Shown here piece by piece: positions 34,907 to 52,384 of a stretch of DNA of 64,000 nucleotides. The stretch covers positions 1,488,001-1,552,000 of the forward strand of contig NZ_CP060394.1 of NCBI RefSeq assembly GCF_014274465.1. The letters run 5' to 3'. The stretch is from Alloacidobacterium dinghuense. Its GTDB lineage: Bacteria > Acidobacteriota > Terriglobia > Terriglobales > Acidobacteriaceae. The notes below the pieces were generated by a model. That model was not told where the DNA came from. It did not search any database and saw nothing but the letters and a program-made list of their open reading frames with translations. Positions within the stretch are counted from its first letter, which is position 1, and the number at the start of each line of letters is the position of its first letter. The position numbers and the translations under genes were made by a program.

Positions 34907-35454
34907 GCGCTTAACCCTTCTCTATTGAAAGTTGTCGAGATTGTCTGCTGATCAGCAAGTCAGGTTGTCTAGAGGGAAGATGACGGGAAAAATGGTCTTT
35001 GAAGGAGCGATATTCGGCTGGATCTCGCGAGTATGGATGACGCCTATAGCGCAACGGATGACGCATGGATGGTTCTCCGTGTGGAGATGCTTGCTATTGC
35101 TGAGTGCTTGAAGCGTATTTAGTGGAGCCCGGTTGTGACATCACCCTCGGATTGGTGTCATCTGTTTTGGGGTAAATCGCGTTTGCTCTCTCAAGTTGCA
35201 GATAGCGTGAGCAATGACATGAATTTTAGTAGCTCAAAAGCAAAGCCGAAATACCAAGACGAGGAAAATGTGGATTACCCATTTGGGTAAGTATTTTCCG
35301 TCGTTCCTAGGCAGTTTTCTTCTTATGGTGGTGAAGGGGATGGCAGGTTTTGTCGCAGGTGGAATGTATACAAAGATGTATACTCCATCCCCGAGACGAA
35401 ATTGCGAGTTGAACTGTGTCACTCCTCGCCAATCGAGGGTTCACTGGAGGATGA
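34907..35454. other. Divergent intergenic region with repeated GTATAC sites
   Basis: 548 bases between poxB (minus) and the S9 peptidase gene (plus). No gene is supported. A 94-codon opening at 35268 overlaps the peptidase start in another frame and has no domain. It contains the promoters of both units and the paired ATGTATAC sites at 35364-35383. Confidence 0.5.
35364..35383. promoter_or_regulatory. Paired ATGTATAC direct repeats, possible operator
   Basis: Two copies of ATGTATAC start 12 bases apart (35364 and 35376), 72-91 bases upstream of the peptidase start. Each contains the palindromic core GTATAC, which also forms the core of the 10-bp palindrome upstream of the GH127 gene at 43122. 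Spacing of about one helical turn suits side-by-side binding of a repressor. The core alone is short enough to occur by chance. Confidence 0.35.
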
Positions 35455-37727
35455 ATGCCGAAGAAATGCTGGATGCTCTCTTGTTGTTTATTTGCCTGGT
35501 TAGGTTTTGGGGCCGCATCGATTCACGCTCAGGTAACGCGTGCGGACTATGAGCGCGCTGCTCAATTGCGGGACAAATATAAGGGGCTGGCGCTGAATAT
35601 TGTGGAATCGCCGAGCTGGGTCGAAGATACGGACACATTCTGGTATCGCAAAACGGTTGAAGGCGGCCACGCATTCGTATTGGTGGATGCGAATACGAAG
35701 ATAAAAAAAACCGCGTTTGACCATGACAAGCTGGCTGCTGCTCTCTCGGAGGCGGATGGGGAGAAGTACACGGGAGTTACTCTGCCCTTCGCGCGCTTTC
35801 GGTATGTTGACAAGCAAGTGGCTATAGAGTTTGTTCTGAAGAATCATCGATGGCACTGCGACCTGATCAACTATGCGTGCACAAAACCTGAGCCATTACG
35901 GGCTGATGACCAGGAATACGAGAGCGATGATGATTACGACAATACGCCGAGAGCGATTAACAACGATACGCGTGCAGAAGCGTCGCCTGATGGCAAGCTG
36001 GAAGCGTTTGTAGAGAACTACAACGTTTTTGTCCGCGAAAAAGGGAAGGCGGACAAGACTGCACTGAGCACGGATGGCTCGGAGGACAATTATTACGCCT
36101 ACGGTACTTTGGTCTGGTCGCCGGACTCACGGCATCTGGTCGCTTACCGGATTCGGCCCGGCTACAAGCGCGAGGTGCACTATGTGGAATCGTCGCCTGC
36201 GGACCAGTTGCAGCCGAAGTATTCGATGATGGTCTATCCGAAGGCGGGTGATGTGCTGGCGCTGCCGCAGCCGGTGCTCTTCGACGTGCCATCGAAGCAC
36301 GAGATTCCTATCGCCAACAGCCTGTTTCCGAATCCATTCGAGTTGTCGCCCGCTGTCTGGTGGAAAGACAGTCGCGGCTTTACTTTTGAGTACAACCAAC
36401 GCGGGCACCAGGATTATAGAGTGATCGAGGTGGATGCGGCGAGTGGGGTGCCGCGTGTCCTGATTGATGAGGAGAGTAAGACCTTTGTTGACTATCGTCC
36501 ACTTGTGCCTGACCAGTTCGACACGACGGCAAAGAGATCGTGTGGGCCTCAGAACGGAGCGGATGGGAGCATCTGTATCTCTATGACGGCAAGACAGGAG
36601 AGGTCAAGAATCAGATCACGAAAGGCGATTGGGTGGTGCGTAATGTCGATCACGTCGATCCCGAGAAGCGAGTGATCTGGTTTGAGGCTAGCGGCATGGA
36701 AGCGGGTAAGGATCCGTACTACATGCATCCGTATCGGATCAATTTCGATGGCACGGGAATGACGCCGCTTTCAAAGGAGGAAGCGGATCATCGCGTCGTC
36801 TTTTCGCCCGATGGCAAGTTCTACATTGATACGTGGTCGCGCATTGATCTGCCACCTGTCATGGAATTGCGGACGGCAGACGACAAGGCGGCGATGACAG
36901 TCGAGCAGGGCGATGATCATAAGTTGATTGACACTGGATGGCAACCGCCGGAGGTGTTTACAGCGAAGGGGCGCGATGGAAAAACCGACATCTGGGGTGT
37001 GATTTATAAGCCAGATCATTTTGACCCGGCAAAGAAATATCCCGTTATTGAGTCGATTTACGCAGGGCCGCAAGGGTCGTTCGTGCCCAAGTCTTTCGGG
37101 CCTTGGGCACAGCCCCTTACCGAACTTGGCTTTGTGGTGGTGCAGATTGACGGCATGGGCACGAACAATCGCTCCAAGGCGTTTCACGATGTGGCCTGGA
37201 AAAATCTGAAGGATGCAGGCTTTGAAGACCGCATTCTCTGGCATAACGCGGTTGCGACGAAGTATCCGTGGTACGACATTTCGCGCGTTGGTGTCTTTGG
37301 CACTTCTGCCGGAGGGCAGAGTGCCATGGGCGCGTTGTTGTTTCATCCTGAGTTCTATAAGGCGGCTGTTTCCAACAGTGGATGCCATGACAACCGAATG
37401 GACAAAATATGGTGGAACGAGCAATGGATGGGATGGCCGGTTGGACCGCAGTATGCTGCGTCATCGAATGTAGACAATGCGTACCGGCTGCAAGGTAAGC
37501 TGCTTTTGGTGGTGGGCGAGATGGACAAGAATGTGGATCCCTCGTCGACATTCCAGGTTGCAAATGCCTTGATCAAAGCAAATAAGCGGTTTGATCTGCT
37601 CTATGTTCCTGGTGGGGGCCATGGCGCAGGCGGTGAGTACGGTCAGCGGTTACTCGCGGATTTTTTTGTCCACAATCTGCTTGGCGAGGAGCCGCCGGAT
37701 TGGAATCGTTTGTCGGGGACAAAATAG
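35455..37727 (+). pseudogene. Frameshifted S9 (DPP4-like) prolyl peptidase
   Basis: Two overlapping frames (35455-36675 and, from a GTG at 36540, 36540-37727) together encode about 757 residues with the layout of S9B dipeptidyl peptidase IV. The first holds a signal peptide (ending GAASIHAQ) and the beta-propeller domain. The second begins [21 protein letters not shown], the end of the propeller, and holds the catalytic domain with [15 protein letters not shown] (nucleophile Ser codon at 37305), Asp in [11 protein letters not shown] and His in GGGHGAGG. The frame changes between about 36510 and 36525, consistent with loss of one base. The rest is intact. Such exported enzymes cleave after proline. 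It is a recent inactivation, a sequencing error, or less likely a programmed frameshift; no slippery heptamer is visible. Confidence 0.75.
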
Positions 37728-37746
37728 CGCGACCTGAAAGGTGCGG

Positions 37747-38859
37747 GTGACAGGGAAGCGAGTCTCATGGTGCGTGCTTTGGCTGGTGCCTGCGCTTGCG
37801 GCGCAAGGGCAGGCACCGCCGGGCGCGCCTGCACAGTCATCGCTGCCTCCGTCGCAGAATAGCCAATTGTCAGAAGGCGAGACGGAGTCGCGTCTTGGGA
37901 CGGCTCTCACCCGCGAGGGCAGGTTTGCAGAGGCCATTCCGCACCTCACAGCAGCAAGAGGGCGGGTTACGAACGAATACGCGGTCAGCTTCAATCTAGC
38001 TTTGTGCTACCTGGGCCTTCGTCAGTATCAGCAGGCTATCGATGTCCTCCAAGGTTTGCGCGCCAATCAGAAAGGTACGGCGCAAGTGGAGAATCTGCTG
38101 GCACAGGCATACATGGGCGTTGATCAGCCGGAGAATGCGCTCGCGGCGCTCCGTCGTGCTGCCAGTCTCACACCGCTGGACGAGAAACTGTACACCTTTG
38201 TTGCCGATGCCTGTACGGATAACAAGGAGTACGAGCTTGGTTTGCGAGTGGTTGGAATAGGATTGCACCACCTGCCCTCGTCGGCGAGGCTGCACTATGA
38301 ACGGGCCATGTTTCTCGCCCGGCTGGACCGCTTTGAAGAGGCGAAACCAGAATTCGAACGTGCTGTCGCACTGGCGCCTGAAAGTGACATCGCCTATCTG
38401 GCAAGCGCTCAGAATCTGCTGTTTCAAGGAGATGTCCAATCTGCCATTCGGACGGTGCGAAAAGGCATCAACAAAGGGCATCACGACTATGTTTTGCAGG
38501 ATCTTCTGGCGGAGGTGCTGATTCACGCCGGAGCAATGCCAGGGCAACCGGAGTTTGTTGAAGCTCGCACTCTGCTCGAAAGCGCGGTAGCCCAGAAGCC
38601 GGATTATTCGACTGCTCAGATTGCATTGGGCAAGCTTTACCTGATGGAGGGCAGGTTCAATGAGGCGGTAACGCATCTGGAGATTGGCCGACGGCTCGAA
38701 CCGCAGAACCCGGCAGTCTATTCCAGCCTGGCGGATGCCTATCGCCGGTTGGGCGAGGAGCAGAAGGCCCATGAGATGTTGGATCAACTGAAAGTGATAT
38801 TGCAGAAAGAAGGCCAGTCCGAGCCGCATAACCAGCAACCGGTCGAGCCCGATCAATAA
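37747..38859 (+). CDS. Secreted TPR protein
   Basis: 370 residues from the GTG at 37747, which has AAAGG five bases upstream (another GTG at 37741 is less well placed). Residues about 1-24 are a signal peptide (VSWCVLWLVPALAAQGQA), followed by a Pro/Ser/Gln-rich linker and then eight or so tetratricopeptide units from about residue 50 to 350, for example FAEAIPHLTAARGRVTNEYAVSFNLALCYLGL and ALGKLYLMEGRFNEAVTHLEIGRRLEPQNPAVYSSLADAYRRLGEE. It begins 19 bases after the S9 peptidase and is probably co-transcribed with it. TPR proteins of this type are common beside acidobacterial peptidases and receptors; the partner is unknown. Confidence 0.75.
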   Translation: MTGKRVSWCVLWLVPALAAQGQAPPGAPAQSSLPPSQNSQLSEGETESRLGTALTREGRFAEAIPHLTAARGRVTNEYAVSFNLALCYLGLRQYQQAIDVLQGLRANQKGTAQVENLLAQAYMGVDQPENALAALRRAASLTPLDEKLYTFVADACTDNKEYELGLRVVGIGLHHLPSSARLHYERAMFLARLDRFEEAKPEFERAVALAPESDIAYLASAQNLLFQGDVQSAIRTVRKGINKGHHDYVLQDLLAEVLIHAGAMPGQPEFVEARTLLESAVAQKPDYSTAQIALGKLYLMEGRFNEAVTHLEIGRRLEPQNPAVYSSLADAYRRLGEEQKAHEMLDQLKVILQKEGQSEPHNQQPVEPDQ

Positions 38860-38878
38860 GCAAATTTTATTCCTCGAA

Positions 38879-38936
38879 AAGGTACAAAATTAAATCTTGC
38901 TAAAAATACAAAAATAAATACATAATTCTGTACCTT
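38879..38936 (+). promoter_or_regulatory. AT-rich promoter flanked by an 8-bp inverted repeat
   Basis: Perfect arms AAGGTACA (38879-38886) and TGTACCTT (38929-38936) enclose a very AT-rich 42-base stretch. Within it TTGCTA (38897-38902) and TACATA (38919-38924), 16 bases apart, could be -35 and -10 boxes for the receptor gene at 39069. The arms are about 50 bases centre to centre, about five helical turns, a spacing suitable for looping by a repressor dimer. Promoter and operator roles are inferred. Confidence 0.4.
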
Positions 38937-39035
38937 CGATTGATGACTGAGTTTGGCAGCGAAATTCAGCCAGAGCTGCAGGCCAGGACAGAAGGGCAAC
39001 GGAAAAAACTCTTACGAGAAGAGACAGAGGCAGCC

Positions 39036-39051
39036 GGGAAAGCGTTTCCCC
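39036..39051. promoter_or_regulatory. GGGAAA-GCG-TTTCCC palindrome, LacI/cre-like site
   Basis: GGGAAAGCGTTTCCCC with six-base arms GGGAAA/TTTCCC; it resembles the CG-centred operators of LacI/CcpA-family proteins (core GAAANCGNTT). A closely similar site lies upstream of the other receptor gene (61077-61092). It is 17 bases before the receptor start, ahead of the GGAGG ribosome site, so it could also act as an RNA hairpin in the leader. Confidence 0.4.
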
Positions 39052-39068
39052 GGAATTTGGAGGATCAG

Positions 39069-42000
39069 ATGCATCGCTTAAAAAACAACTGTAAATTGGT
39101 GAGCCTGATTGCCGGCTTGATCTTCAGTGCAGTCATTTTTACGCTGACAGCACGCGGACAAAGTGGATCGCAGGGAAGCGTCATTGTGACGGTTCAAGAT
39201 CCTACCGGAAATCTCGTGCCGGGGGCACACCTCGAACTCATAGACGTTTCAACGAATGACATTCGATTGGCTGAAACCCAGGACAGAGGGAGCTATACGT
39301 TCGTCAACCTGAATATCGGGACGTACAGGCTCACTGTCTCAAAGAGCGGTTTTGCTCAGCAGGTGTTTGAATCGGTCATCATTCATTCAGCGCAGGTTAC
39401 GGATGTAAACGCCTCATTGAGGATTGGGCAGGAGAGTCAAACAGTCCAGGTGACAGAGAGCGCTACGCCGGTTCTGGAAACGTCGTCGAATGCGATTGGC
39501 ACGGTTGTGGATATGAAACAGATCCAGGACTTGCCGGTGGCTGATCGCGACCTGTCATCGCTGGCTTTGATCACGCCGGGATACAACGGAACGTGGAACG
39601 GTCTGCCCTCCATCGATCAGGGCAGTAACATCGACGGCGTGATGGGCAGCCCTAGCCGTATGAAGTTCACGGGGAATGCGTCGCCCGCGGTAACGGCACG
39701 GCTCGAAGACATCGAAGAGATGACGATCCAGACCGACCAACTTGCGTTGAACTCCGGCTTTGGTCAGTCGAGCATGCAGATCAATTTTGTAACCAAGCGC
39801 GGCTCAAATCACTTTCATGGTGGAGTCTTCGGAGATTTTCAGAACTCCGGTTTGAATGCGAACAGCTGGACAAACAATGCAGCAGACGTCCGGAAGGATA
39901 AGTTCATTAAGAATAGTTTCGGCGCTAATGCGGGGGGGCCGATCCTGCATGACAAGCTCTTCTTCTTCGGCAGCTTCGCTTTTACCAAGGAGCCGGCCAC
40001 AATCACCGCGTTCAATAACGTTTTTACGCAGGGCGCCCAGTCGGGCAATTTCACGTATATCGGAAGTGATGGACAAAGTCACACGGAGAACCTGTTTCAA
40101 CTGGCACAGCAAACCAATCCCAGCCTGCCTACTACGTTGAATTCGGCAGTATCATCACAGCTGCAGACGATCAACAAATCTCTGTCGGGCGGTAGCGTTT
40201 CCAGCAGCTCTGATCCGAACTTCAGCACTGTGCGCTGGAACGTTGCCTCGCCGACCACCTACTATTTCCCGACGGTTCGCGTGGATTACAGTCTCTCGCA
40301 AAAGCTGCGCATGTATCTTGCCTGGAACATGACGCAGCAGACGCAGCCAAGTGTCAATCCGCCGAATTTCCCGGGTTCGGATTTCAGCGATCAGACTACC
40401 GGCAACTGGACTCGGAGCTACATTGCGTCTTATGGCCTGGATTGGATCATTTCGCCTTCGCTGATTAATCAGTTCAAAGCGGGCTTTCTGTACAACGCAA
40501 CCAAGTACTCGTACAACGCAAAGCCTCTTTACGCAACGGAGCCGACGGTTGCCTGGAACTTTAATAGCTATGGCTCGACCAGTTCGACCTGCAACAACAA
40601 CGGCATGTCCGGTCAGTGCTATCAGACACCCATAGGTCCCTACTATCCCGTCTTCAATGCGTCTGACTCCGTTACGTGGCAACATGGAGCCCATAATTTC
40701 GATTTCGGTTTCTCCTGGTATCGCGAGCAGGATCACTATTGGAATGGACCTCTTGGTTTTCCAGCCTACAACCTCGGTCTGTCTACCGGCGACCCTGCCT
40801 TGCAGGCTTTCAACGCAACCACGTTGCCGGGAGCAAGCACGCATTCTCAAGCAGAGGCTCAGCAGCTCTACGCGGTGCTTACAGGAAGAATCGGTGGTGG
40901 TTCGGGTACACAAGCGGTGAACGGCACCTTTGCCTACAATCCCAGCACCGGCTCATATTTCAACGGAATCGGTTCCTATAACCTCAATGAGCTTTCCAAA
41001 GCCTGGGGCGTATTTTTTGAGGACTCCTGGCACGTAACGCCAAACTTCACACTTAACTACGGTCTGCGCTGGGACTTCACAGGCGATAACCACGATCTGA
41101 CCGGCGCTTATCACTCCGTCTCGCCCAGCGGCATCTTCGGGCCATCAGGAATCGGAAACCTATTCAACCCAGGTTCGCTGCAGGGCGACATGAATCCACA
41201 GATCATAACCCAACCCCACGCCTACAGCCCCTGGAATGTGTCCCCGCAGCCAGCGATCGGCTTTGCCTGGAATCCTAAGGGCGATGAGGGTGTGCTGGGC
41301 AAGCTCTTTGGCGACGGCAAAACTGTTATTCGAGGCGGCTTTAACCTGCGGCGCTTTACCGAGCCATATCAATACTTCTGGGACGCGGCCTCGGACTACG
41401 CTGCATTCTTCTACCAGACGTTCTATCTCAATGCGAACAACACCGGACAGTCCGGCACATTTACGCCTGGCAGCCTTGCCCTGGGCGGCAATCTGCCAGC
41501 ATATGGGTTGGCTCCAGCTACGTATCAGAAATCTGAAGCGCTGTCTGATTTCACTTTCCAGAATTCCGTGGGAACAAACGGCATTAACCCCGGGATCAAG
41601 CAGCCCTACAGCCAGGCGTGGAACTTCGGTATTCAGCGCCAGCTGGGGAACTCGCGCGCCATTGAGATCCGCTATAACGGCAATCGCACCGTTCATCAGT
41701 GGCTCAATTTGAATCCGAATGAGGTCAACATCTTCGAGAATGGATTCCTCAATGAGTTCAAGAATGCACAGACAAACCTTGCACTCAATGGCGGAACCTC
41801 GTTTGCGTATAACGGCATGGCTGGCCAGAAGCCGCTCCCGATCTTCAATGCGGCCTTTGCCGGTGAATCCTCCGGCGGCCCAGGCGTCCCGCTGGCAGAT
41901 TATTCCAACAGTCAGTTCATTACTTATCTGCAGACCGGACAAGCTGGAGCCATGGCCAACGTGCTTGCGGGCGTGAACGGCACGGCTCCGTACTTCTGCA

Positions 42001-42977
42001 ATCTCGTAGGTTCAAGCTTCGCTCCCTGTGTCACCAACGCTGGATACACTGGCGGCGGCGCAGGCTATCCCATCAACTTCTTCCAGGCCAATCCATATGC
42101 TGCCGGAACATCCACAGGCTACATGACCGCGGCTGGCTACTCCAACTACAACGCGTTGCAGGTAGACTTCCGCCAGAATGCGTGGAGCGGCCTGCAGTTT
42201 GATGCCAACTACACATGGAGCCAGTCACTGGGGCTTTCAACTTATAACGACTGGACCTCTGCGTTTGCGGCGTATACACTCCGCGATCTGGCAAAGAGCT
42301 ATGGGCCCTCCCTCTTCGACCTGCACAATGTCTTCCACTTCAGCGGGACATATGACCTTCCCTTCGGTGCGGGCAAGCCGTTCCTGAGCTCAGGGCACCT
42401 CGTCGATAAGATGCTGGGTAACTGGACCGCGGGAACAATTCTCACTTTCCAGAGCGGCGCTCCCTGGCGCTTAACTGGCGGCTACAACACTTTCAATGAC
42501 TACGGTGATGGCGGTATTGTGCTCAATGGAGTCACGTCATCGCAGCTGCAGCATTCGATCGGTGTGCACCACATTACACCCGCTCAGAATGGAGGTACTC
42601 CGGCGACCTTTGTTGACTTTATTGATCCGAAGTATCTGGCTAGTCCGACGGGTGGAGCGAACCCAACGTTCATTACGCCGAACACGACACCCGGTACCTT
42701 TGGCAGCATTATCTATCTCCACCAACCGCATACTTTCCAGAACGATGTGTCTTTGACCAAGGCATTTCCGATCAAGGAAAACCTCCGCGTCAGGTTTCAG
42801 GGTGAGTTCCTGAACGCCTGGAACCATCCTCTCTTTGGGAATGGGGGCAGCGGAAACACGTATTACAACGGAAATATCCAGGGCACCAGCTTTGGAACCG
42901 GCACTGAGCTGAATCAATTCACCACGCCGTCATATACACCGCGTCAGATTGAGTTGCGCGTGAACGTCGACTTCTAG
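39069..42977 (+). CDS. Oar-type TonB-dependent outer-membrane receptor
   Basis: 1302 residues from the ATG at 39069, chosen because GGAGG lies five bases upstream and the signal peptide starts there (MHRLKNNCKLVSLIAGLIFS); an opening to 38940 would add 43 polar residues. A carboxypeptidase-regulatory-like domain follows (about 30-115: SVIVTVQDPTGNLVPGAHLEL to RLTVSKSGFAQQVF), then the plug (IGTVVDMKQIQDLPVADRDLSSL) and the 22-strand barrel ending in the aromatic-terminated RQIELRVNVDF. Oar receptors import large or poorly soluble substrates with TonB-ExbBD energy. There is no SusD-like partner. Context (peptidase before, GH127 after) suggests a glycopeptide or arabinoside cargo (inference). 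Confidence 0.85.
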   Translation: MHRLKNNCKLVSLIAGLIFSAVIFTLTARGQSGSQGSVIVTVQDPTGNLVPGAHLELIDVSTNDIRLAETQDRGSYTFVNLNIGTYRLTVSKSGFAQQVFESVIIHSAQVTDVNASLRIGQESQTVQVTESATPVLETSSNAIGTVVDMKQIQDLPVADRDLSSLALITPGYNGTWNGLPSIDQGSNIDGVMGSPSRMKFTGNASPAVTARLEDIEEMTIQTDQLALNSGFGQSSMQINFVTKRGSNHFHGGVFGDFQNSGLNANSWTNNAADVRKDKFIKNSFGANAGGPILHDKLFFFGSFAFTKEPATITAFNNVFTQGAQSGNFTYIGSDGQSHTENLFQLAQQTNPSLPTTLNSAVSSQLQTINKSLSGGSVSSSSDPNFSTVRWNVASPTTYYFPTVRVDYSLSQKLRMYLAWNMTQQTQPSVNPPNFPGSDFSDQTTGNWTRSYIASYGLDWIISPSLINQFKAGFLYNATKYSYNAKPLYATEPTVAWNFNSYGSTSSTCNNNGMSGQCYQTPIGPYYPVFNASDSVTWQHGAHNFDFGFSWYREQDHYWNGPLGFPAYNLGLSTGDPALQAFNATTLPGASTHSQAEAQQLYAVLTGRIGGGSGTQAVNGTFAYNPSTGSYFNGIGSYNLNELSKAWGVFFEDSWHVTPNFTLNYGLRWDFTGDNHDLTGAYHSVSPSGIFGPSGIGNLFNPGSLQGDMNPQIITQPHAYSPWNVSPQPAIGFAWNPKGDEGVLGKLFGDGKTVIRGGFNLRRFTEPYQYFWDAASDYAAFFYQTFYLNANNTGQSGTFTPGSLALGGNLPAYGLAPATYQKSEALSDFTFQNSVGTNGINPGIKQPYSQAWNFGIQRQLGNSRAIEIRYNGNRTVHQWLNLNPNEVNIFENGFLNEFKNAQTNLALNGGTSFAYNGMAGQKPLPIFNAAFAGESSGGPGVPLADYSNSQFITYLQTGQAGAMANVLAGVNGTAPYFCNLVGSSFAPCVTNAGYTGGGAGYPINFFQANPYAAGTSTGYMTAAGYSNYNALQVDFRQNAWSGLQFDANYTWSQSLGLSTYNDWTSAFAAYTLRDLAKSYGPSLFDLHNVFHFSGTYDLPFGAGKPFLSSGHLVDKMLGNWTAGTILTFQSGAPWRLTGGYNTFNDYGDGGIVLNGVTSSQLQHSIGVHHITPAQNGGTPATFVDFIDPKYLASPTGGANPTFITPNTTPGTFGSIIYLHQPHTFQNDVSLTKAFPIKENLRVRFQGEFLNAWNHPLFGNGGSGNTYYNGNIQGTSFGTGTELNQFTTPSYTPRQIELRVNVDF

Positions 42978-43007
42978 CCATCCACTTGAACGAAGTGGTA
43001 CTCCTAG

Positions 43008-45224: not shown

Positions 45225-46814
45225 CTAGGAAATGGCTTCGGTCGTCATCTTGCCATTGAGCATACGTAAAATTCCCAGCGGATTCTGATTCTTCAATTCC
45301 TCAGGAAGAGCTGATTGCGGCAGGTTCTGGTAGCAGACGGGGCGCGAGAAGCGGAAGATTGCTTGACTGCCGACGGACGTTGAACGGCCATCCGATGTGG
45401 CAGGATATGGGCCCCCGTGCACCATCGCGTGGCAAACTTCTACTCCAGTTGGATATCCATTGAAGATGACGCGGCCGACTTTACGCTCAAGGATGGCGAT
45501 CAGGTCTTGATTCGCAGACAGGTCTTCTTCGGTGCCAATGAGCGTTGCGGTGAGGTGTCCTTTGAGCGCGTGTGCCGCCTGGAGTAGTTGCTCGCGGCTG
45601 CTGGAACGGACGAGGAGCGTTGTGGGACCGAAGATTTCTTCTGACAGCGAGGGATTGTTGAGCACTTCTTCCACATCTGCTTCGAAGAGCGCGGCGGTGG
45701 TGGATGCGGGTGCTGGCGCTGGCTGTACCGTCGAGGCTGTTACGACCTGGGCATAGTCCGATTCTCTTCGCTGCGTCAGTCCTCTTTGGTATTGCGCGGC
45801 TATGCCGGCGGTCAGCATGGTGAAAGCGGGAAGATCGGCGGCGCGCTTGCGCAATTCTTCGACGAGATTTGAGGACTCGGCTTGCGTCGGCAGAAAGACG
45901 AGTCCGGGCTTTGTGCAGAATTGGCCTGCTCCTAATGTGTAAGAGACAGTGAGGTCGGCAGCGATCTTTTCGTGTTGTTTGAGTGCTCCGGGCAAGATGA
46001 AGACCGGGTTTACGCTGCTCATTTCGGTGTAGCAGGGGATGGGATCGGGTCGGGCGGCGGCGAGGTCCATAAGAGCGCGGCCTGCTGCGAGCGATCCAGT
46101 GAAGCCTACGGCTTTGATGAGCGGATGTTGCACCAAGTTTTGGCCGACTTGAATGCCCGCATCGAAGAGCAGCGAGAAGACGCCTTCGTGCAAGCCGCAT
46201 GCGGCGATACTCTCGCGGATTACGTTGCCGACTAATTCGCTGGTTCCCGGATGCGCTGGATGTGCCTTAACGATGACCGGATTGCCAGCAGCCAGTGCTG
46301 ATGCCGTGTCTCCGCCAGCAACGGAAAACGCCAGAGGAAAATTGCTGGCGCCAAAGACGGCGACGGGACCAAGCGGCAAAAACATGGAACGGATGTCAGG
46401 CTTGGGCAATGGTTTGCGCTCGGGATCGGCGGTGTCGATGCGCGCCGTGACCCACGAGCCTTCTTCAGCGACGTCGGCGAAGAGACGAAGCTGGTTGGCG
46501 GTGCGGGCCACTTCTCCCTGAAGACGCGGAATCGGAAGCGCCGTCTCCTGATTTGCGCGTTGCACCAGGTCATCCGCGATCGCCTGGAGGCCGTCGGCGA
46601 TTCTGCGCAGAAATGCTCCGCGTTCGCGGCCAGAGAGTCTGCGGTAGCTCGAGAAGGCTGCCTCTGCCGAAGTCGCAGCGTGGTCTACTTCCTCGATCGA
46701 GGCGGAGAAGTAGGTGGGCTGAAGGCGCTCACCTGTTGCAGGATTTGTGCCTTGAAACGGTGCTCCAGACTGCAAGCCGCGCGTGGAGCCGAGAAATGAT
46801 GTGCCCTGGAGCAT
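45225..46814 (-). CDS. Alpha-ketoglutarate semialdehyde dehydrogenase
   Basis: 529 residues. An NADP-type aldehyde dehydrogenase of the KGSADH (2,5-dioxovalerate dehydrogenase) class, here the last step of hydroxyproline breakdown: alpha-ketoglutarate semialdehyde to 2-oxoglutarate. Catalytic Cys300 (GAGQFCTKPGL) and general base Glu264 (CYTEMSSVNP) are present; GPVAVFGASNFPLAFSVAGGD (150-170) lies in the cofactor domain. The start has AAGGA upstream. It ends the operon; the same enzyme class also ends the non-phosphorylative pentose pathway, relevant because pentose genes lie nearby. It corresponds to LhpG in Pseudomonas. Confidence 0.85.
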   Translation of the reverse strand: MLQGTSFLGSTRGLQSGAPFQGTNPATGERLQPTYFSASIEEVDHAATSAEAAFSSYRRLSGRERGAFLRRIADGLQAIADDLVQRANQETALPIPRLQGEVARTANQLRLFADVAEEGSWVTARIDTADPERKPLPKPDIRSMFLPLGPVAVFGASNFPLAFSVAGGDTASALAAGNPVIVKAHPAHPGTSELVGNVIRESIAACGLHEGVFSLLFDAGIQVGQNLVQHPLIKAVGFTGSLAAGRALMDLAAARPDPIPCYTEMSSVNPVFILPGALKQHEKIAADLTVSYTLGAGQFCTKPGLVFLPTQAESSNLVEELRKRAADLPAFTMLTAGIAAQYQRGLTQRRESDYAQVVTASTVQPAPAPASTTAALFEADVEEVLNNPSLSEEIFGPTTLLVRSSSREQLLQAAHALKGHLTATLIGTEEDLSANQDLIAILERKVGRVIFNGYPTGVEVCHAMVHGGPYPATSDGRSTSVGSQAIFRFSRPVCYQNLPQSALPEELKNQNPLGILRMLNGKMTTEAIS

Positions 46815-46879: not shown

Positions 46880-47800
46880 TTAACGACTTGCGCCTGCGAA
46901 TACCGCTTCTTCAATCATAGGCCGACTCTTGAGCGCTTCGGTCAATACCTGCTTTGTCTCGGTGAGCTCGTCGCCGGTGATTTCTAGGCGCGGCGCGCGT
47001 ACACGGGCACTGCCAACGCCGACTTCTTGTTGAACGAATTTGATAAGTTGGATGAATTTTGGGACAGTATCCATGCGCAACAAGGGTAGGAACCAGCGGT
47101 AGAGTTCGAGGGCCTCCTTGTGCTTGCCCTCGTATGCGAAGTTGAAGAGAGCGACTGATTCGGCAGGCATGGCGTTGACGAGTCCTGCGATCCAACCAGT
47201 AGCACCTGCGGCTATGCCTTCGACGATGGCGTCGTCGACGCCGACGAAAATTTTCAGGCGATCATTGAGCAGCGCGCGGATGGCTGAAACGCGGCGCACA
47301 TCGGTGCTTGATTCCTTTACGGCGTGAAAGTTGGCGTGCTCGGCGGAGAGTTCGGCGATCTGTTCAGGTAAGAAATCAGTGCCGTAGGCGACGGGGTTGT
47401 TATAGAGCATGCACGAAAGAGGCGTGGCGCGAAAGATTGTCGCGATGTGGGCCTTCGTCTCGCGCCAATCACCGCGATAGACGTAAGGCGGTAACACCAT
47501 CAAGCCGGAGCATCCGTTATCGGCTGCGGTTTTGGCGAGGGAAACGGCCTCGGCGGTTGAAAGCGCGGAAATAGCAGCGACGACCGGCACACCTTTCACA
47601 GTTGCGACGATGTTTTTGAGGATGGAGACCTTTTCGTCCGGGGTTAGCGTTGCAGCTTCGCCCAGCGAGCCGAGCATCACCAATCCTGTACAGCCATTTT
47701 CGATCATCCAGGTTGCGTGTTTTGCCATGAACACGTGATCGATATTCAGCTTTTCGTCGAAGGCGGTTGTCATTGCGGGCATTACGCCGAACCAGTTCAT
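46880..47800 (-). CDS. lhpC: Delta1-pyrroline-4-hydroxy-2-carboxylate deaminase-like (DapA family)
   Basis: 306 residues of the dihydrodipicolinate synthase/N-acetylneuraminate lyase family. Schiff-base Lys162 (HAVKESSTD) and Tyr133 (MLYNNPVAY) are present, and GSLGEAATLTPDEK is the family phosphate-loop equivalent. In the hydroxyproline pathway this enzyme deaminates and dehydrates pyrroline-4-hydroxy-2-carboxylate to alpha-ketoglutarate semialdehyde. GTAGGAG precedes the ATG. The assignment rests on its place between the D-hydroxyproline dehydrogenase and KGSADH genes; by itself the family is functionally mixed. Confidence 0.8.
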   Translation of the reverse strand: MNWFGVMPAMTTAFDEKLNIDHVFMAKHATWMIENGCTGLVMLGSLGEAATLTPDEKVSILKNIVATVKGVPVVAAISALSTAEAVSLAKTAADNGCSGLMVLPPYVYRGDWRETKAHIATIFRATPLSCMLYNNPVAYGTDFLPEQIAELSAEHANFHAVKESSTDVRRVSAIRALLNDRLKIFVGVDDAIVEGIAAGATGWIAGLVNAMPAESVALFNFAYEGKHKEALELYRWFLPLLRMDTVPKFIQLIKFVQQEVGVGSARVRAPRLEITGDELTETKQVLTEALKSRPMIEEAVFAGASR

Positions 47801-47809
47801 TTGTGTCTC

Positions 47810-49087
47810 CTACTTTGTTTTAAGTTGTGCTTCGAGGGGCGCTGACGCGTCAGCCAGACTGGACAAGTGTGTTGGGAAAACGGGTGGCCGTATCGAGTCC
47901 GGGCGCCAACCGAAAAGAAATTCTGCGGCTGGTCCGCAGATACGGCCCTGGCATGGACCCATGCCGCAGCGCGTTTGCAGCTTGGCATCGCGCCAGGATG
48001 AATGGGATGCCATGGCGTTGAAGGGGACGTCTTCGCAGCGACAGACGATCGTGTCACTTTTCGGCAAATGGCGAAGTGCGGGGTCGAGGCCGAACGCTGT
48101 CTCCAGTCGCGAAGCAAACTCGTGCAGCTTTCTGCGTTTGCCTTGCAGCGCGTTTGCTTTGGACATTTGCCCGCTGGCAGAGTAGCCGGCAATTTCGCCT
48201 TCAATCAGAGACGACTCCAGACCGCCGATGCCAGTTGGTTCGCCCGCACAGTAGATGCCGGGGATGGAGGTTAACTGGTTCTCATCGACTTTCACCTGTA
48301 CTGAGGTGACGGTGCAACCTAGAAGTTCAGCGAGCTCGGTGTTGGGAACAAGATGAAAGCCACACGCCAGATAATCGCATGGAATGGTCCACTCGCGGTT
48401 GCCTTTGCGCAAGGTGACCGATTCGAGCCTGTCATCCGATCCATGAGCCGCTATGGGCCAACAGCTGGTGTGAAAATGTGCCCCGCGAGTTTGCCATCTT
48501 AAGGTCATGGCCTGTTGAAGCTTCTCGAAATTTGTAACGATTGAAGTGGCAAATGCCGCGAGGCGCGCGCGGGAGGCTTGTTCGCAGATCTCGAGGATGC
48601 GCGCTCCATGTTTTGTGAGATAGGCGGCGACAGCGAGTAAGAGAGGGCCGCTTCCGGCAATGACGACGCGCTTGCCTTCGATGGGGAGACCTGATTTTAC
48701 AAGCGCCTGTAGAGCGCCTGCTCCGAGTACGTTGGGTAATGTCCATCCGGGGAAGGGAAGGAAACGCTCGCGCGCGCCGGTTGCGAGAATCAGTTTGTTG
48801 TAGGCAATATCTAAGTGCACGCCGTTCTTCTCAGCGCGGAGTATGCCTCGTGAAGGTTGGCTGAAAATTCGCCAGCCTTGCAACTGCATAGCTGGAGAGG
48901 CTGCCAGTCGCTTGTACCACTCGGCAGCGGCGGATGATAGTGCGTCGGCGCCACGCCAGATCTGCCCGCCGGGAGCGAAGTTGTCATCGACCAGTCCAAC
49001 GCGCTTTCCGCTTTCGGCGGCTCGCGTGGCGGCTGCTATGCCAGCTGGGCCTGCGCCAACAACCAATATGTCAAACGACTGGCTCAC
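47810..49087 (-). CDS. D-hydroxyproline dehydrogenase, FAD/BFD-domain subunit
   Basis: 425 residues from a GTG that overlaps the previous stop by four bases (GTGA). It has the FAD motif DILVVGAGPAGIAAATRAAE at the N-terminus, a central NAD-like motif KRVVIAGSGPLLLAVAAYL and a C-terminal BFD-like [2Fe-2S] domain with CRCEDV and RCGMGPCQGRICG. This is the layout of the alpha subunits of heterotrimeric D-hydroxyproline or D-proline dehydrogenases and of HcnB. It works with the small 2Fe-2S protein and the DAO-type subunit encoded just upstream. Confidence 0.8.
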   Translation of the reverse strand: MSQSFDILVVGAGPAGIAAATRAAESGKRVGLVDDNFAPGGQIWRGADALSSAAAEWYKRLAASPAMQLQGWRIFSQPSRGILRAEKNGVHLDIAYNKLILATGARERFLPFPGWTLPNVLGAGALQALVKSGLPIEGKRVVIAGSGPLLLAVAAYLTKHGARILEICEQASRARLAAFATSIVTNFEKLQQAMTLRWQTRGAHFHTSCWPIAAHGSDDRLESVTLRKGNREWTIPCDYLACGFHLVPNTELAELLGCTVTSVQVKVDENQLTSIPGIYCAGEPTGIGGLESSLIEGEIAGYSASGQMSKANALQGKRRKLHEFASRLETAFGLDPALRHLPKSDTIVCRCEDVPFNAMASHSSWRDAKLQTRCGMGPCQGRICGPAAEFLFGWRPDSIRPPVFPTHLSSLADASAPLEAQLKTK

Positions 49088-49326
49088 TGGCTGCGTACCT
49101 CCATGCCTGGTTCGCACAGCATCTGGCAGGTGCGGCAATGCGGAAGACCGTTGACCATGGCGCGGCATTCGAAGCAGATGCCCATACCGCAGAGGGGTGA
49201 TCGCGGCTCGCCTGCTACGGATGTGCGGCAGTGCACTCCAGTCATCATGATCGCGGCGGCTACGCTGGTACCGGGGGCCACGCTGAGCGGTTGGCCATTG
49301 ACAGTTACCGTGATGCGCTCAGGCAT
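49084..49326 (-). CDS. D-hydroxyproline dehydrogenase, small [2Fe-2S] subunit
   Basis: 80 residues from the second Met (49326), which overlaps the previous stop by eight bases. A ferredoxin-like domain with Cys ligands in HCRTSVAGEPRSPLCGMGIC, FECRAMVNG and CRTCQM (residues about 33-70). It is the HcnA/LhpE-type gamma subunit that carries electrons between the two flavoprotein subunits. Overlapping starts and stops on both sides show a single translational unit. Confidence 0.8.
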   Translation of the reverse strand: MPERITVTVNGQPLSVAPGTSVAAAIMMTGVHCRTSVAGEPRSPLCGMGICFECRAMVNGLPHCRTCQMLCEPGMEVRSQ

Positions 49327-50443
49327 GGGCGGTCTCCAGGGCAAAGCGCGCAGGCAGATATGGATCTATGGGGATGGCTGATGTTCGCTTGAGAATGGAG
49401 TCGGCCAAGAGTCGCGCGGTCGCGAGAGATGTTGTGATGCCAAGGCCTTCGTGGCCCGTGGCAAGGAAGACTGTCGGGTCGTCCGTCGGTCCGATAAGCG
49501 GAAGCTTGTCAGGTGTTGCAGCACGGAAGCCGGTCCAGGCGCGGATGGTGGAAAGATTTGCGATTCCGGGCAGGTACTCGCATGTGCGCTTCAGCATGGA
49601 CTCGAGAATGGAGTGGTCGATAGCCGAGTCTTCTGCTCCGTACTGGCGTGATGAGCCGATGAGCAACTGGCCGGTACGGCGTGGCTGTACGTTGAATGCC
49701 ACGGAATCGCTGATGACGGAATGTGCGCTCTTCAAGTAACCCAGTTCGACCAGTTGATGTCGCACGAAACCGGGATAGCGATCAGTGATCACGAGATGAC
49801 CTTTGCGCTTCTTGATGGGGAGATCGGGCAGAAGCGATGTCGCACCTGCGCCGGTGGCATGGACGAGATACGCTGACGAGATTGATGTTCCGTCATTGAG
49901 TTGGACCTTGCCATGTTCGGCGCTGAGGATGGTTTTGCCCAGCATCAGGTCGGCGCCCTGCTGTTGTGCGCTGGTAATGAGAAATGACGCAGCGCATGGA
50001 GGATAGAGGACCGCATCGGATGGAACCAGTAGGGCTCCGGCGAGGGGCTTGCGCAGGTTGGGTTCCGCTTCGGCGAGCGCATGGCTATCCAGAACCTGCG
50101 TGGGAACATTCGCGGACGCATACAAAGCGTGCTTGCGGCGGACTTCGATCATTTCTGCTTCGTCAGCGGCGATCCAGAGGGTCCCGCAGCAATCGTATTC
50201 AATGCTGGAAGGAAGCGCGGGGGACAGGGAATTCCACAAGGACTGCGAGTACTGGGTGAGTGCCAGCTGTGCGGGCGAGTCATCCATTACGACGATGTGA
50301 CCCATGCCAGCGGCTGTCGCGCCGCCTCCAACGATGTCGCGCTCGACGATGACGACGCGCATGCCTTCGCGTGCCAGTTCATAGGCACAGGCGGCGCCTA
50401 CGATGCCGGCTCCGATGACAACTGCGTCGTAGGTAGGATTCAT
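49319..50443 (-). CDS. D-hydroxyproline dehydrogenase, DAO-type flavoprotein subunit
   Basis: 374 residues of the D-amino-acid oxidase (DadA/HcnC) family. FAD motif YDAVVIGAGIVGAACAYELAR (5-25), AGMGHIVVMDD near residue 46, and the C-terminal TGHEGLGITTSLATARLLAD. It oxidises D-4-hydroxyproline (from the epimerase) to pyrroline-4-hydroxy-2-carboxylate. It overlaps the epimerase stop by four bases and the small subunit start by eight. The first 25 residues show no signal peptide, so it is cytoplasmic or membrane-associated. Confidence 0.82.
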   Translation of the reverse strand: MNPTYDAVVIGAGIVGAACAYELAREGMRVVIVERDIVGGGATAAGMGHIVVMDDSPAQLALTQYSQSLWNSLSPALPSSIEYDCCGTLWIAADEAEMIEVRRKHALYASANVPTQVLDSHALAEAEPNLRKPLAGALLVPSDAVLYPPCAASFLITSAQQQGADLMLGKTILSAEHGKVQLNDGTSISSAYLVHATGAGATSLLPDLPIKKRKGHLVITDRYPGFVRHQLVELGYLKSAHSVISDSVAFNVQPRRTGQLLIGSSRQYGAEDSAIDHSILESMLKRTCEYLPGIANLSTIRAWTGFRAATPDKLPLIGPTDDPTVFLATGHEGLGITTSLATARLLADSILKRTSAIPIDPYLPARFALETAHA

Positions 50444-51396
50444 GGCACGATGCCGAGGCGGAATGGATCGTCTGCGTCGAGAATGAGGGACGATTCAGCT
50501 GTGACATATGCGGTGCTTGTAATGCTGGGCAGGATCAGACCATTCTCGATCTGAATGCTGCCTTCGAAGATCGTGTCAAGGATGCCTTCCTGGCGCCAGA
50601 TTTGTCCGGGAGCGAGCTGGCCCTCGGCATACATGCAGGCCATTTTGGCGCTGGTACCTGTGCCACAGGGAGAGCGATCGTATGCTTTGCCGGGGCATAG
50701 GACGAAGTTGCGGCTGTCAGAATGGCCATTTTGCGGTGGTGCGAAGAGTTCAATATGGTCAATTTCTGAGCCGTTCTCGCCAGTGACGCCATAGGCAGCT
50801 AATGCGCTTTTGACAGCCCATGCGAAGTCGGTGAGTTCGGAGACGTGGCGCAGATCCAGGTGGAGACCGTGATCTTCCATCAGATAAAACCAGTTGCCAC
50901 CCCAGGCAACATCACCGCTCACTCTGCCGTAGCCAGGGACGTTTACCGCCACACACTTCTGACTCCGGTAACTCGGCACATTTTCCACGGTGACCTTGCC
51001 GGAATCGTGCAGTCTTGTGCTGACTACTCCTACGGGCGTCTCAATGCGATGCGTTCCGGGCTGAAGTTTTCCAAGGTAGGCGAGGCTTACGACGACGCCG
51101 ATGGTTCCGTGGCCGCACATGCCAAGGTAGCCGACGTTGTTGAAAAAGATGACTCCCGCATCGCAGCTGGGGTCTGCGGGTTCGCAGAGGAGTGCGCCGA
51201 CAAGAACCTCGGACCCACGCGGTTCGTTCACGACGGCAGAGCGGAAGTAGTCATGCGAAGTGCGAAAGCGCTCCAGCCGGTCCGCGAGCGGGCCATTACC
51301 CAAGTCAGGGCCACCAGACAGGACAAGCCTGGTTGGTTCGCCAGCGGTATGGGAATCAACGACTTCTACGCGTTGTACGCGCTTGGCAATTTGCAT
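50440..51396 (-). CDS. lhpA: 4-hydroxyproline 2-epimerase
   Basis: 318 residues of the proline-racemase superfamily. Both catalytic cysteines are present, Cys94 (GMCGHGTIG) and Cys244 (DRSPCGTGTSAKMA), so it is an epimerase or racemase and not the Thr-containing 3-hydroxyproline dehydratase. It converts trans-4-hydroxy-L-proline to cis-4-hydroxy-D-proline. HTAGEP near the N-terminus is the family motif. It is the first gene of the operon, whose later genes identify hydroxyproline as the substrate rather than proline. Confidence 0.88.
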   Translation of the reverse strand: MQIAKRVQRVEVVDSHTAGEPTRLVLSGGPDLGNGPLADRLERFRTSHDYFRSAVVNEPRGSEVLVGALLCEPADPSCDAGVIFFNNVGYLGMCGHGTIGVVVSLAYLGKLQPGTHRIETPVGVVSTRLHDSGKVTVENVPSYRSQKCVAVNVPGYGRVSGDVAWGGNWFYLMEDHGLHLDLRHVSELTDFAWAVKSALAAYGVTGENGSEIDHIELFAPPQNGHSDSRNFVLCPGKAYDRSPCGTGTSAKMACMYAEGQLAPGQIWRQEGILDTIFEGSIQIENGLILPSITSTAYVTAESSLILDADDPFRLGIVP

Positions 51397-51405
51397 AGTT
51401 CACAA

Positions 51406-51424
51406 TGTCGACAAAATTGGATAC
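51406..51424. promoter_or_regulatory. Operator-like site upstream of the hydroxyproline operon
   Basis: TGTCGACA (51406-51413) is a perfect palindrome immediately followed by AATTGGATAC (51415-51424), the latter repeated exactly before the second receptor gene at 61118. On the minus strand it reads GTATCCAATT, close to GTATACAA upstream of GH127. It lies 10-28 bases upstream of the epimerase ATG, between that gene and the divergent GntR gene, the expected place for that regulator's site. Confidence 0.45.
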
Positions 51425-51658
51425 GATTTCATCTTAACCTACAGGTGGACGAGTTGCCATGCTTTTTCCTCGATCTCAAGGCGGTGTCGCTCATGCGCTA
51501 TCTCTTCGGCTGATTTACAGAACGGGCACGTCTCTTGAACGATTCGGGCTCGTCACTGTGTGTGAATGATACGACTGGCGGTGCAAGCGGGTGCAGGTAA
51601 TGGATTGGCTATTCCTCTAACCGTGTTTCATCCTTTACTCTGTGCATTGGCCGATCGA

Positions 51659-52384
51659 ATGACTACTGCAAAGAAAAAGACGCGCACGCCCAGAGCCGAG
51701 CATGGTACAAGCCTGCATACGGCATTTAAGGAAATACGTGAATTGATTGTCCACGGAAAGCTTTCGCCGGGCACGTGGATTGTGGAAGGCGATTTGGCCG
51801 ACCGCATGGGGATGAGCCGCACGCCGGTGCGCGGAGCCTTGCATTGGCTTCAGCGCGAGGGCTATGTTCTGGAACACAAGAACGTCAGCAAGTCGCGTAT
51901 GGTGGTGGCTCCGCTCACGAAAGAGGATGCCAGCGAACTGTATTCCATTATAGGCCGGATTGAGGGCCTTGCCGGACGGCGCATGGCGATGCTTCCGAAG
52001 GCAGAGCGTATGGAGATTGTGCAGAGCCTGAAGAGCTACAATCAGCAGCTCAATGAGATTGTGAAGGCGCGTCCGAGCAAAGCCGCAGGGATTTTTGATT
52101 TAGACCACAACTTTCATCGCAGGATTGTGGAGTCAGGGGCGGGGCCTCGGCTAATGGCGCTACACAAGGCTATTGAGCCGCAGACAGAACGCTACTGGCG
52201 GCTTTATGCCAGTTCCATTATTCATGACCTGCATCTTTCGATCGCTGAGCATGAGGAGATTATCAGCGCGATCGCGACTGGTGATTCGGACCGCGTGGAA
52301 CGCGGGCTGCAAACGAACTGGGAAAGAGGCGCAGAGCGCCTTGCGCACGTGATCGATGTCTTCGGTGAGCGGGGAAGCTGGTAG
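51659..52384 (+). CDS. GntR/FCD family regulator, hydroxyproline-type
   Basis: 241 residues from the ATG at 51659; the frame is open to 51566 but no better start or ribosome site is seen. The winged helix is IRELIVHGKLSPGTWIVEGD, ADRMGMSRTPVRGALHWLQREGYV (about 23-65). The FCD effector domain has DLDHNFHRRIVES and LHLSIAEHEEIISAI, supplying the metal and ligand Asp/His residues (about 140-210). It is divergent from the hydroxyproline operon, as HypR-type regulators often are. The ligand is likely hydroxyproline or a pathway intermediate (inference). Confidence 0.8.
   Translation: MTTAKKKTRTPRAEHGTSLHTAFKEIRELIVHGKLSPGTWIVEGDLADRMGMSRTPVRGALHWLQREGYVLEHKNVSKSRMVVAPLTKEDASELYSIIGRIEGLAGRRMAMLPKAERMEIVQSLKSYNQQLNEIVKARPSKAAGIFDLDHNFHRRIVESGAGPRLMALHKAIEPQTERYWRLYASSIIHDLHLSIAEHEEIISAIATGDSDRVERGLQTNWERGAERLAHVIDVFGERGSW

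Follow-up and report, generated by a model that had tools for sequence, protein, structure and literature searches.

The locus described here, from Alloacidobacterium dinghuense, belongs in reduced form to a gene cluster that recurs in the family, and it is probably a member of an Acidobacteriaceae utilisation locus for arabinosylated hydroxyproline (Hyp)-rich plant glycoproteins, either extensin or arabinogalactan-protein (AGP) glycopeptides or both. Gene content, catalytic motifs, conserved linkage and co-directional gene strings are observed directly. The window, that is the whole stretch of DNA analysed, comprises 64,000 nt (GCF_014274465.1, NZ_CP060394.1, positions 1,488,001-1,552,000, forward strand). 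Every gene named in an earlier note on this DNA was found in it by Pfam, NCBIfam, motifs and the ORF list (Table 1). These are a putatively exported, frameshifted DPP4-like peptidase, seen as two overlapping frames by Pfam and homologue alignment; an Oar-type receptor; an arabinosidase; a complete trans-4-hydroxyproline operon, all enzyme classes of which are present on the minus strand; and a divergent GntR regulator.

Table 1. Features of the locus and the evidence for their assignment (positions in the window).
Feature	Position	Strand	Basis
DPP4-like (S9) peptidase, N-terminal piece of frameshifted gene; export read by eye	35455..36675	+	Pfam DPPIV_N 4.7e-19
DPP4-like peptidase, C-terminal piece, other frame	36540..37727	+	Pfam Peptidase_S9 1.4e-44; GTSAGG motif
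TPR protein	37741..38859	+	Pfam TPR
Oar-type outer-membrane receptor	38940..42977	+	Pfam CarboxypepD_reg + OMP_b-brl_4
GH146, putative beta-L-arabinofuranosidase; RR signal by eye, Zn-Cys3-Glu site	43175..45112	+	Pfam GH127_cat 2.5e-112
Probable alpha-ketoglutarate semialdehyde dehydrogenase (KGSADH)	45225..46814	-	Pfam Aldedh; GQFCT motif
DapA-family protein, probable 1-pyrroline-4-hydroxy-2-carboxylate deaminase by context	46880..47800	-	Pfam DHDPS 5.8e-54; AVKES motif
D-hydroxyproline dehydrogenase, FAD/iron-sulphur subunit	47810..49168	-	Pfam Pyr_redox_2; CRCE + CGMGPC motifs
D-hydroxyproline dehydrogenase, small Cys-rich ferredoxin-like subunit	49084..49344	-	ORF + Cys motifs only
D-hydroxyproline dehydrogenase, DAO-type subunit	49319..50443	-	Pfam DAO 1.2e-67
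4-hydroxyproline 2-epimerase	50440..51396	-	NCBIfam PRK13970 423 bits vs cut-off 442; both Cys motifs
GntR/FCD regulator, divergent from Hyp operon	51566..52384	+	Pfam FCD and GntR
GH31 alpha-glycosidase, possible accessory gene	52540..54777	+	Pfam GH31
GH39 glycosidase, possible accessory gene	54811..56487	+	Pfam GH39 1.6e-60
RhmD-like dehydratase (MR family)	56501-57673
GguC/AraD1	59092-60093		445 bits vs model cut-off 340

The epimerase with its two Cys, the multi-subunit dehydrogenase, the DapA-like protein and the KGSADH stand in one gene string, as in known trans-4-hydroxy-L-proline operons, and the epimerase is the sole Pro_racemase-family gene found in the genome (single match). The best NCBIfam model for the KGSADH candidate was a KGSADH model, at 118 bits and far under its cut-off of 770. 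No PDB match was obtained for the DapA-like protein at E 1e-40. Gene content was compared across 33 loci in which arabinosidase and epimerase are linked, so the counts of these two genes are set by the selection and do not serve as evidence. The DapA-like cluster was represented in 27 of these loci, the Oar receptor in 22 and the TPR protein (cluster c16) in seven, the window counted in the last two figures, and the regulator in 17. In the two nearest relatives the regulator is 86% and the receptor 69-70% identical. ORFs were called as the longest frames of at least 80 aa, so that small genes, the ferredoxin-like subunit among them, are undercounted. Homologues of the GH31 and GH39 genes occurred in 13 and 4, respectively, of 180 stretches from relatives, some of which overlap; two of the GH39 hits are overlapping stretches of the G104 locus.

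The N-terminal piece of the peptidase covers positions 45-236 of DPPIV_N and is at most 64% identical to unbroken homologues. The C-terminal piece covers positions 251-354 and Peptidase_S9; it is 67-79% identical to 18 of the 24 members of its cluster and 49-52% identical to six. Since both pieces match consecutive parts of intact homologues, they read as one gene broken by a frameshift. The beta-propeller and the alpha/beta-hydrolase with the G-x-S-x-G-G serine of DPP IV (S9) are both there, split over the two frames, and the enzyme of the window strain is presumably inactive because of the frameshift. The sequence G-x-S-A-G-G was present in 21 of the 24 cluster members. Its Ala presumably occupies the position of Tyr631 in human DPP IV and Asn614 in PmDAP IV, a placement based on the position of Tyr631 after the catalytic Ser, and not on an alignment. 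Among solved structures a module peptidase came closest to 2ecf, which we take to be Stenotrophomonas maltophilia DPP IV. By the excerpted text of PMC5807507, Asn614 is the S1 residue of PmDAP IV and Tyr631 its human counterpart, and a reference title there has the S. maltophilia enzyme acting on a 4-Hyp substrate.

The arabinosidase had been described as a GH127 enzyme with the full Glu/Cys site. The site was borne out: E348, C350, C416 and C417 are invariant in alignment A1 (16 sequences), and the active-site Glu and Cys align with those of 5opj. The HypBA1-type GH127 identity was dropped, as 3wkw, presumably HypBA1, is a far weaker match than the best solved relative, 5opj, both by sequence (E 5e-9 against 2.2e-104) and by profile comparison (2e-29 against 5e-175). 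The three best solved relatives were 5opj, 8k7y and 8k7x, which we take to be the structures of BT0349 and Bll3HypBA1. Both proteins belong to GH146, with a site of a Zn-coordinating Glu and three Cys, one of them the nucleophile, according to the parts of PMC10850190 available. The window enzyme is thus, by sequence, a GH146 member and a putative beta-L-arabinofuranosidase; the Tat (RR) signal assigned to it comes from inspection of the sequence and not from a prediction tool. Its reported position directly beside the Hyp operon held as well, with a gap of 112 bp, but a joint operon did not: the gene (+) is aimed at the 3' end of the operon (-), so the two are convergent, separate transcription units in the window.

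Synteny between arabinosidase and Hyp genes in relatives had been set beforehand as a test and was found within the family. Among 398 Acidobacteriaceae genomes, the epimerase was present in 135, an arabinosidase homologue (best three candidates per genome scored) in 123 and both in 82. The two genes shared a contig in 38 of these 82 and lay <30 kb apart in 32, where about 1.3 would be expected for genes placed uniformly over a genome taken to be 5.2 Mb long; the 30 kb limit and the E-value cut-offs were the analyst's choice. The 32 pairs span 15 genus labels, counted by hand. A GH127-type gene that lies shortly beyond the window (L006:3523-5370) was tried as a module member, dropped and used as the control, scored in the same way. 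Among the matches listed it lay <30 kb from the epimerase in 5 of 76 genomes (about 1.1 expected), 134 of 200 matching genomes (150 rows) having entered the count; the difference in linkage, among the matches listed, gave a Fisher p of 1e-6. Some enrichment close to the epimerase is thus seen for the control gene too.

Linkage is not universal. Of the 82 co-occurring genomes, 50 did not show it, the genes being on different contigs in 44, many of them fragmented assemblies, and on one contig but >30 kb apart in six; no matching arabinosidase was found in 53 of the 135 epimerase genomes. The two nearest relatives (G017, G088) keep the arabinosidase-Hyp linkage, and their DPP4 gene sits away from it. 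The three other genomes under the window's genus label held no arabinosidase and, in one case, an epimerase. In the phylum sample outside the family, none of six genomes with both genes had them on one contig, a weak comparison because three of the assemblies have at least 290 contigs and the epimerase match of G464 and G573 is only 36% identical. One Bryobacteraceae locus, outside the Acidobacteriaceae, is linked.

The DPP4-like peptidase is a more faithful companion of the epimerase than the arabinosidase is. It was found in 47 family genomes (best two candidates per genome scored), of which 45 also have the epimerase (hypergeometric 1.5e-21, phylogeny ignored); in those 45 the two share a contig in 31 and lie <30 kb apart in 29, a count that favours linked subfamilies since the query was drawn from a linked locus. 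Further recurrent partners in the linked loci, by Pfam typing, are the Oar receptor, a permease, GH27, GH43, DUF885 peptidases and DUF5695. Among the Pfam-typed window genes (35455-61004) there is no GH43, GH27, DUF5695, DUF885 or APC permease. In 18 of the 33 loci a co-directional string contains Hyp genes together with genes for glycosidases, peptidases or permeases. One (G066) runs through Oar, an untyped gene, epimerase, DAO, FAD subunit, DapA, GH27, DUF5695, DPP4 and GH146; another (G117) runs from epimerase to KGSADH, then GH27, DUF5695, permease and GntR; and the G263 locus also encodes two peptidases of family M1 and an M24 enzyme of the aminopeptidase-P type. The module order is variable, with 30 distinct orders among the 33 loci, a figure inflated by contig ends.

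These data bear on whether one system is present, as the earlier note proposed, or two neighbours: a pectic-arabinan unit of GH146 and Oar, and a pathway for free Hyp, collagen Hyp included, brought together in a catabolic hot spot. A single system is favoured by the linkage of both arabinosidase and peptidase and by the shared strings, and the broken peptidase and convergent arabinosidase of the window speak against it. The convergence would suit two neighbours, as would the control gene lying near the epimerase above chance (among the matches listed), the zero of six outside the family, and the membership of the GH146 enzyme BT0349 in an RG-I locus (PMC10850190, in excerpt). However, the arabinosidase is linked at about six times the control rate (among the matches listed), nearly all peptidase genomes carry the epimerase, and strings are shared in more than half of the loci, and we regard two separate neighbours as unlikely.

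Extensin, suggested in the earlier note, is unsupported as the specific substrate, because GH146 is known to act on arabinan and AGPs (available text of PMC10850190) and DUF5695 has a fold resembling an AGP lyase (PL27), in a model of low confidence. It is conceivable, if rather doubtful, that the substrate is instead a gum-arabic-like AGP, from which DUF5695 would remove uronic-acid caps and GH39, GH27, GH43 and GH146 would trim the arabinose and galactose caps before the Hyp core is burned. Yet by sequence DUF5695 matched the BACCELL_00875 profile weakly (E 0.23); the single copy in the window genome is distant from the locus; the GH43 genes are typed to family and not to subfamily; and no galactanase-type Pfam family occurred when 53 more ORFs of 330 aa or longer from linked loci were typed (20 + 33; for the 33, among the 25 of 45 families listed). 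The predicted structure of cluster c14 (mean pLDDT 57.6) had one PDB match with E <0.001, to the GH127-type BT_1003, followed by other alpha/alpha-barrel enzymes. For DUF5695 the open-licence PMC literature gave one paper, on fungal regulators.

A further reading extends the role of KGSADH to L-arabinose as well as Hyp, with arabinose oxidised to alpha-ketoglutarate semialdehyde (KGSA) by the RhmD-like dehydratase and GguC/AraD1. The Weimberg route does run via KGSA (PMC7374468, in excerpt), GguC/AraD1 scores above its model cut-off, and G366 has an AraD1 homologue with an IlvD/EDD-type gene and G123 an IlvD/EDD gene. However, the sugar-acid genes (56501-61004) were dropped as module members, homologues of the MR, MFS, AraD1 and HIBADH-like genes occurring in 0, 2, 3 and 0 of the 180 stretches, and AraD1 activity was not found in the available open-licence PMC texts. 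This reading is improbable; it is compatible with the glycoprotein reading and no exclusive alternative to it.

If glycoproteins are the substrate, exported glycosidases would strip arabinose and other sugars, GH146 in the window and GH43, GH51, GH27, GH31 and DUF5695 in fuller relatives. The DPP4-like peptidase would take off X-Hyp dipeptides with help from DUF885-type peptidases, and fragments would enter via the Oar receptor, joined in relatives by a permease of the APC type; export and the order of these outer steps are conjectural. The steps of Hyp breakdown follow the order epimerase, D-Hyp dehydrogenase, deaminase, KGSADH. Inside the cell the epimerase would convert Hyp to cis-4-hydroxy-D-proline, which the three-subunit dehydrogenase would oxidise; deamination by the DapA-like protein would give KGSA, and KGSADH would oxidise this to 2-oxoglutarate, under the putative control of the GntR/FCD regulator. 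There is perhaps an even chance that this is an undescribed locus class for whole glycoproteins, joining cap removal by DUF5695 as a new family of PL27-like fold, GH146/GH43/GH51 for arabinose, GH27 for alpha-galactose, X-Hyp removal by DPP4 enzymes of a subfamily that has lost the bulky Tyr from the S1 pocket (G-x-S-A-G-G), uptake, conversion of Hyp to 2-oxoglutarate and a Hyp-responsive regulator.

Hyp-rich glycoproteins are a protein-bearing part of plant walls. Known systems for them in Bifidobacterium longum (PMC7263609) and Xanthomonas (PMC6085000) are described, in the excerpts available, as taking sugars. The former, hypBA1-hypBA2-hypAA (GH127, GH121, GH43) with an ABC importer, is likewise a cluster for Hyp-rich-glycoprotein beta-arabino-oligosaccharides, and the excerpt mentions neither Hyp catabolism nor a peptidase; in contrast, the window has GH146, no GH43 among typed genes 35455-61004, and an Oar-type receptor, with no SusD of a SusC/SusD locus in the same range. 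Xanthomonas euvesicatoria xehypBA1/BA2/AA shares Hyp-arabinoside enzymes and an adjoining predicted prolyl oligopeptidase gene that is likewise frameshifted, but has GH127/GH121/GH43 where GH146/DUF5695 occur here, and no Hyp operon in the excerpted text. BT0349 and Bll3HypBA1, presumably the closest solved relatives of the window enzyme and sharing its Zn-Cys3-Glu site, are known from the setting of an RG-I locus and from that of an AGP cluster (PMC10850190, in excerpt). For Latescibacteria, extensin/AGP use including a beta-L-arabinofuranosidase was proposed in silico from gene presence, not a locus, with no Hyp operon in the part available (PMC4454575). Unlike known bacterial Hyp operons, those of Acidobacteriaceae are repeatedly joined to glycosidases, DPP4 and an Oar receptor. 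Searches of the open-licence PMC literature gave no paper on Acidobacteria with a Hyp epimerase or on gene clusters for Hyp and arabinofuranosidase and, in titles and abstract starts, no comparable sugar, peptide and Hyp locus. Such a locus, if real, would identify soil bacteria, and the enzymes they use, in the turnover of Hyp-rich glycoproteins and would give GH146, DUF5695 and the DPP4 subfamily a testable substrate. What becomes of wall-bound Hyp in soil could then be tested directly in relatives, Granulicella for example.

The window (G000:C1:1488001-1552000) lies on the single 6.27 Mb contig of its genome, which contains five matches to the GH127 Pfam family and one to the Pro_racemase family. 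The arabinosidase gene and the hydroxyproline (Hyp) operon are convergent and separated by a gap of 112 bp. A sugar-acid cluster was also seen in the window, followed by another Oar receptor gene and, just beyond the window end, by a GH127-type gene.

Features of the locus and of the neighbouring sugar-acid cluster (window positions)
Feature	Position	Strand	Remark
DPP4-like peptidase	35455-36675 and 36540-37727	+	two frames
TPR protein	between DPP4 pieces and Oar gene	+	
Oar-type receptor	38940-42977	+	
Arabinosidase (GH127 Pfam)	43175-45112	+	RR signal read by eye
Hyp operon	51396 down to 45225	-	
GntR/FCD gene	beside Hyp operon		divergent from operon
Sugar-acid cluster	56501-61004		RhmD-like MR-family dehydratase, MFS transporter, GguC/AraD1, 3-hydroxyisobutyrate-dehydrogenase-like gene
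Oar receptor	61160 on		after sugar-acid cluster

In a sequence search against solved structures, the best relative of the arabinosidase was 5opj (E 2e-104), which we take to be BT0349, followed by 8k7y, presumably Bll3HypBA1, and 8k7x (both about 1e-53). The match to 3wkw, which we take to be HypBA1, had an E value of 5e-9, and a 16-sequence profile ranked the solved relatives in the same way. BT0349 and Bll3HypBA1 are classed as GH146 in PMC10850190. Judged by sequence, the window enzyme is thus a member of GH146, and not the HypBA1-type GH127 enzyme proposed in the earlier note. Residues E348, C350, C416 and C417 were unchanged across the 16 aligned sequences. In two Xanthomonas records (L166 and L194), homologues of GH146 (52% and 50% identity) lie close to homologues of AraD1.

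The linkage of the arabinosidase to the Hyp genes was surveyed in 398 genomes of the family, using cut-offs of E up to 1e-40 for the epimerase and up to 1e-60 for the arabinosidase. The epimerase was found in 135 genomes, the arabinosidase in 123 and both in 82, a co-occurrence with a phylogeny-uncorrected Fisher odds ratio of 8.4 (p 1e-19). The two genes shared one contig in 38 of the 82 genomes, lying less than 30 kb apart in 32 and less than 15 kb apart in 24 of these, under 15 genus labels; uniform placement in an assumed genome size of 5.2 Mb would give about 1.3 pairs closer than 30 kb. As a control, the second GH127-type gene of the window's genome was used in place of the arabinosidase; among the 150 matches listed, it was within 30 kb of the epimerase in 5 of 76 genomes (about 1.1 expected), and the two linkage rates differed with a Fisher p of 1e-6. 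Linkage was not observed for 50 of the 82 genomes, six of which had both genes on one contig but more than 30 kb apart. Among three other genomes with the genus label of the window, none had the arabinosidase and one had the epimerase.

A scan of genome contigs with the GH146 alignment gave 80 best loci, 75 with Acidobacteriota-type record titles, and at least one Hyp-operon homologue was present in the flanks (up to 10 kb) of 12. One of the 12, a Bryobacteraceae locus (L174), carries DUF885, Oar, GH146, DPP4, the ORF cluster c14 and Hyp genes. Among 199 genomes drawn from the phylum, six non-family genomes, some of them fragmented assemblies, had both genes and none had them on one contig. 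On this evidence, the GH146-Hyp linkage is mainly a family trait. The synteny expected in relatives was borne out within the family, and was not seen in the six sampled genomes outside it that have both genes.

ORFs were clustered over 33 loci, namely the 32 linked ones (window included) and that of G381, with the genes 31.7 kb apart. The loci were unequal in length and some were ended by contig ends. Apart from the genes by which the loci were selected, the most frequent partners were Oar (22), DPP4 (22, leaving out the split copy of the window), DUF5695 (21) and GntR (17), followed by an APC permease (13), GH27 (11), DUF885 (10 and 4, in two clusters), c14 (8), GH43 (8), TPR (7), GH31 (6) and GH51 (3). 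Thirty distinct gene orders were found, and in 18 of the 33 loci Hyp genes and a module gene formed one co-directional string with gaps below 350 bp. The string of G066 reads Oar, one untyped gene, epimerase, DAO, FAD subunit, DapA, GH27, DUF5695, DPP4 and GH146; that of G215 runs from the epimerase to the alpha-ketoglutarate semialdehyde dehydrogenase (KGSADH), then GH146 and DUF5695; and that of G117 from the epimerase to KGSADH, then GH27, DUF5695, permease and GntR. The G263 locus additionally has a second GH127-type gene and more peptidase genes, namely another DUF885, two of family M1 and an M24 enzyme of aminopeptidase-P type. Where the two halves were separated, partners were found with either, as in G047, with DPP4 by the Hyp genes and DUF5695 and DUF885 by GH146.

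Two further clusters were noted. Members of c14 are about 780 aa long (e.g. L042:12333-14750 and L149:7517-9871); a Pfam scan gave nothing beyond a weak Tat signal, and a low-confidence model suggests a likeness to alpha/alpha-barrel glycosidases. Cluster c30 (587 aa; L031:1270-3033 and L116:11922-13682), with an RR signal read by eye and no Pfam family matched, directly adjoins GH146 in the two nearest relatives of the window's genome, and homologues lie near GH146 in six further loci (L125, L138, L163, L169, L181 and L191).

The module DPP4 of G098 was used as peptidase query (E up to 1e-150); as it comes from a linked locus its subfamily is favoured in the counts, by which 47 family genomes had DPP4 and 45 of them also the epimerase (hypergeometric p 1.5e-21). 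DPP4 and epimerase shared one contig in 31 genomes and were less than 30 kb apart in 29; DPP4 and arabinosidase were within 30 kb in 22. In the nearest relatives, G017 and G088, DPP4 is away from the locus. The pattern G-x-S-A-G-G was present in 21 of 24 cluster members and G-T-S-S-G-G in one, two being without a pattern match; GTSAGG is found in the piece from the window. Among solved structures, the module peptidase is closest to 2ecf, which we take to be the Stenotrophomonas maltophilia enzyme. The Ala after the catalytic serine presumably corresponds to Tyr631 of human DPP IV and Asn614 of PmDAP IV. According to PMC5807507, Asn614 stands in the S1 pocket of PmDAP IV where human DPP IV has Tyr631, and a title cited there has the S. 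maltophilia enzyme acting on a 4-Hyp substrate. The Ala may help Hyp binding. In the window the gene is broken by a frameshift, although both pieces (35455-37727) still align to intact copies; a predicted prolyl oligopeptidase gene adjoining the Xanthomonas Hyp-rich glycoprotein (HRGP) enzymes is likewise reported to be frameshifted (PMC6085000). The single DUF5695 homologue in the window's genome is distant and lies elsewhere. The window is a reduced member of the recurring locus, with a broken peptidase gene.

Extensins carry Ser-linked alpha-galactose, which could be the target of GH27, and arabinogalactan-protein (AGP) caps would fit as an alternative. AGP is favoured by DUF5695 (PF18951; e.g. 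L034:12449-15238 and L117:7107-9917), whose nearest fold in a low-confidence model would be the PL27 gum-arabic lyase BACCELL_00875, ahead of other folds. No galactanase-type family was found when 53 more ORFs from the loci, each 330 aa or longer, were typed (for part of them, among the 25 families listed of 45), which favours extensin. Collagen as the sole Hyp source would not explain the glycosidases. HRGP arabinoside clusters are described for B. longum (PMC7263609) and Xanthomonas (PMC6085000), and HRGP use is predicted from gene presence in Latescibacteria (PMC4454575); no description of Hyp catabolism and arabinosidases in one locus was found in the titles and abstract openings of the open-licence papers listed. 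The idea of a locus for Hyp-rich glycoproteins was right in kind and is now better supported, with another enzyme family than first named and with extensin itself as a candidate substrate. GH146, Hyp oxidation and DPP4 together point to arabinosylated Hyp peptides as the substrate.
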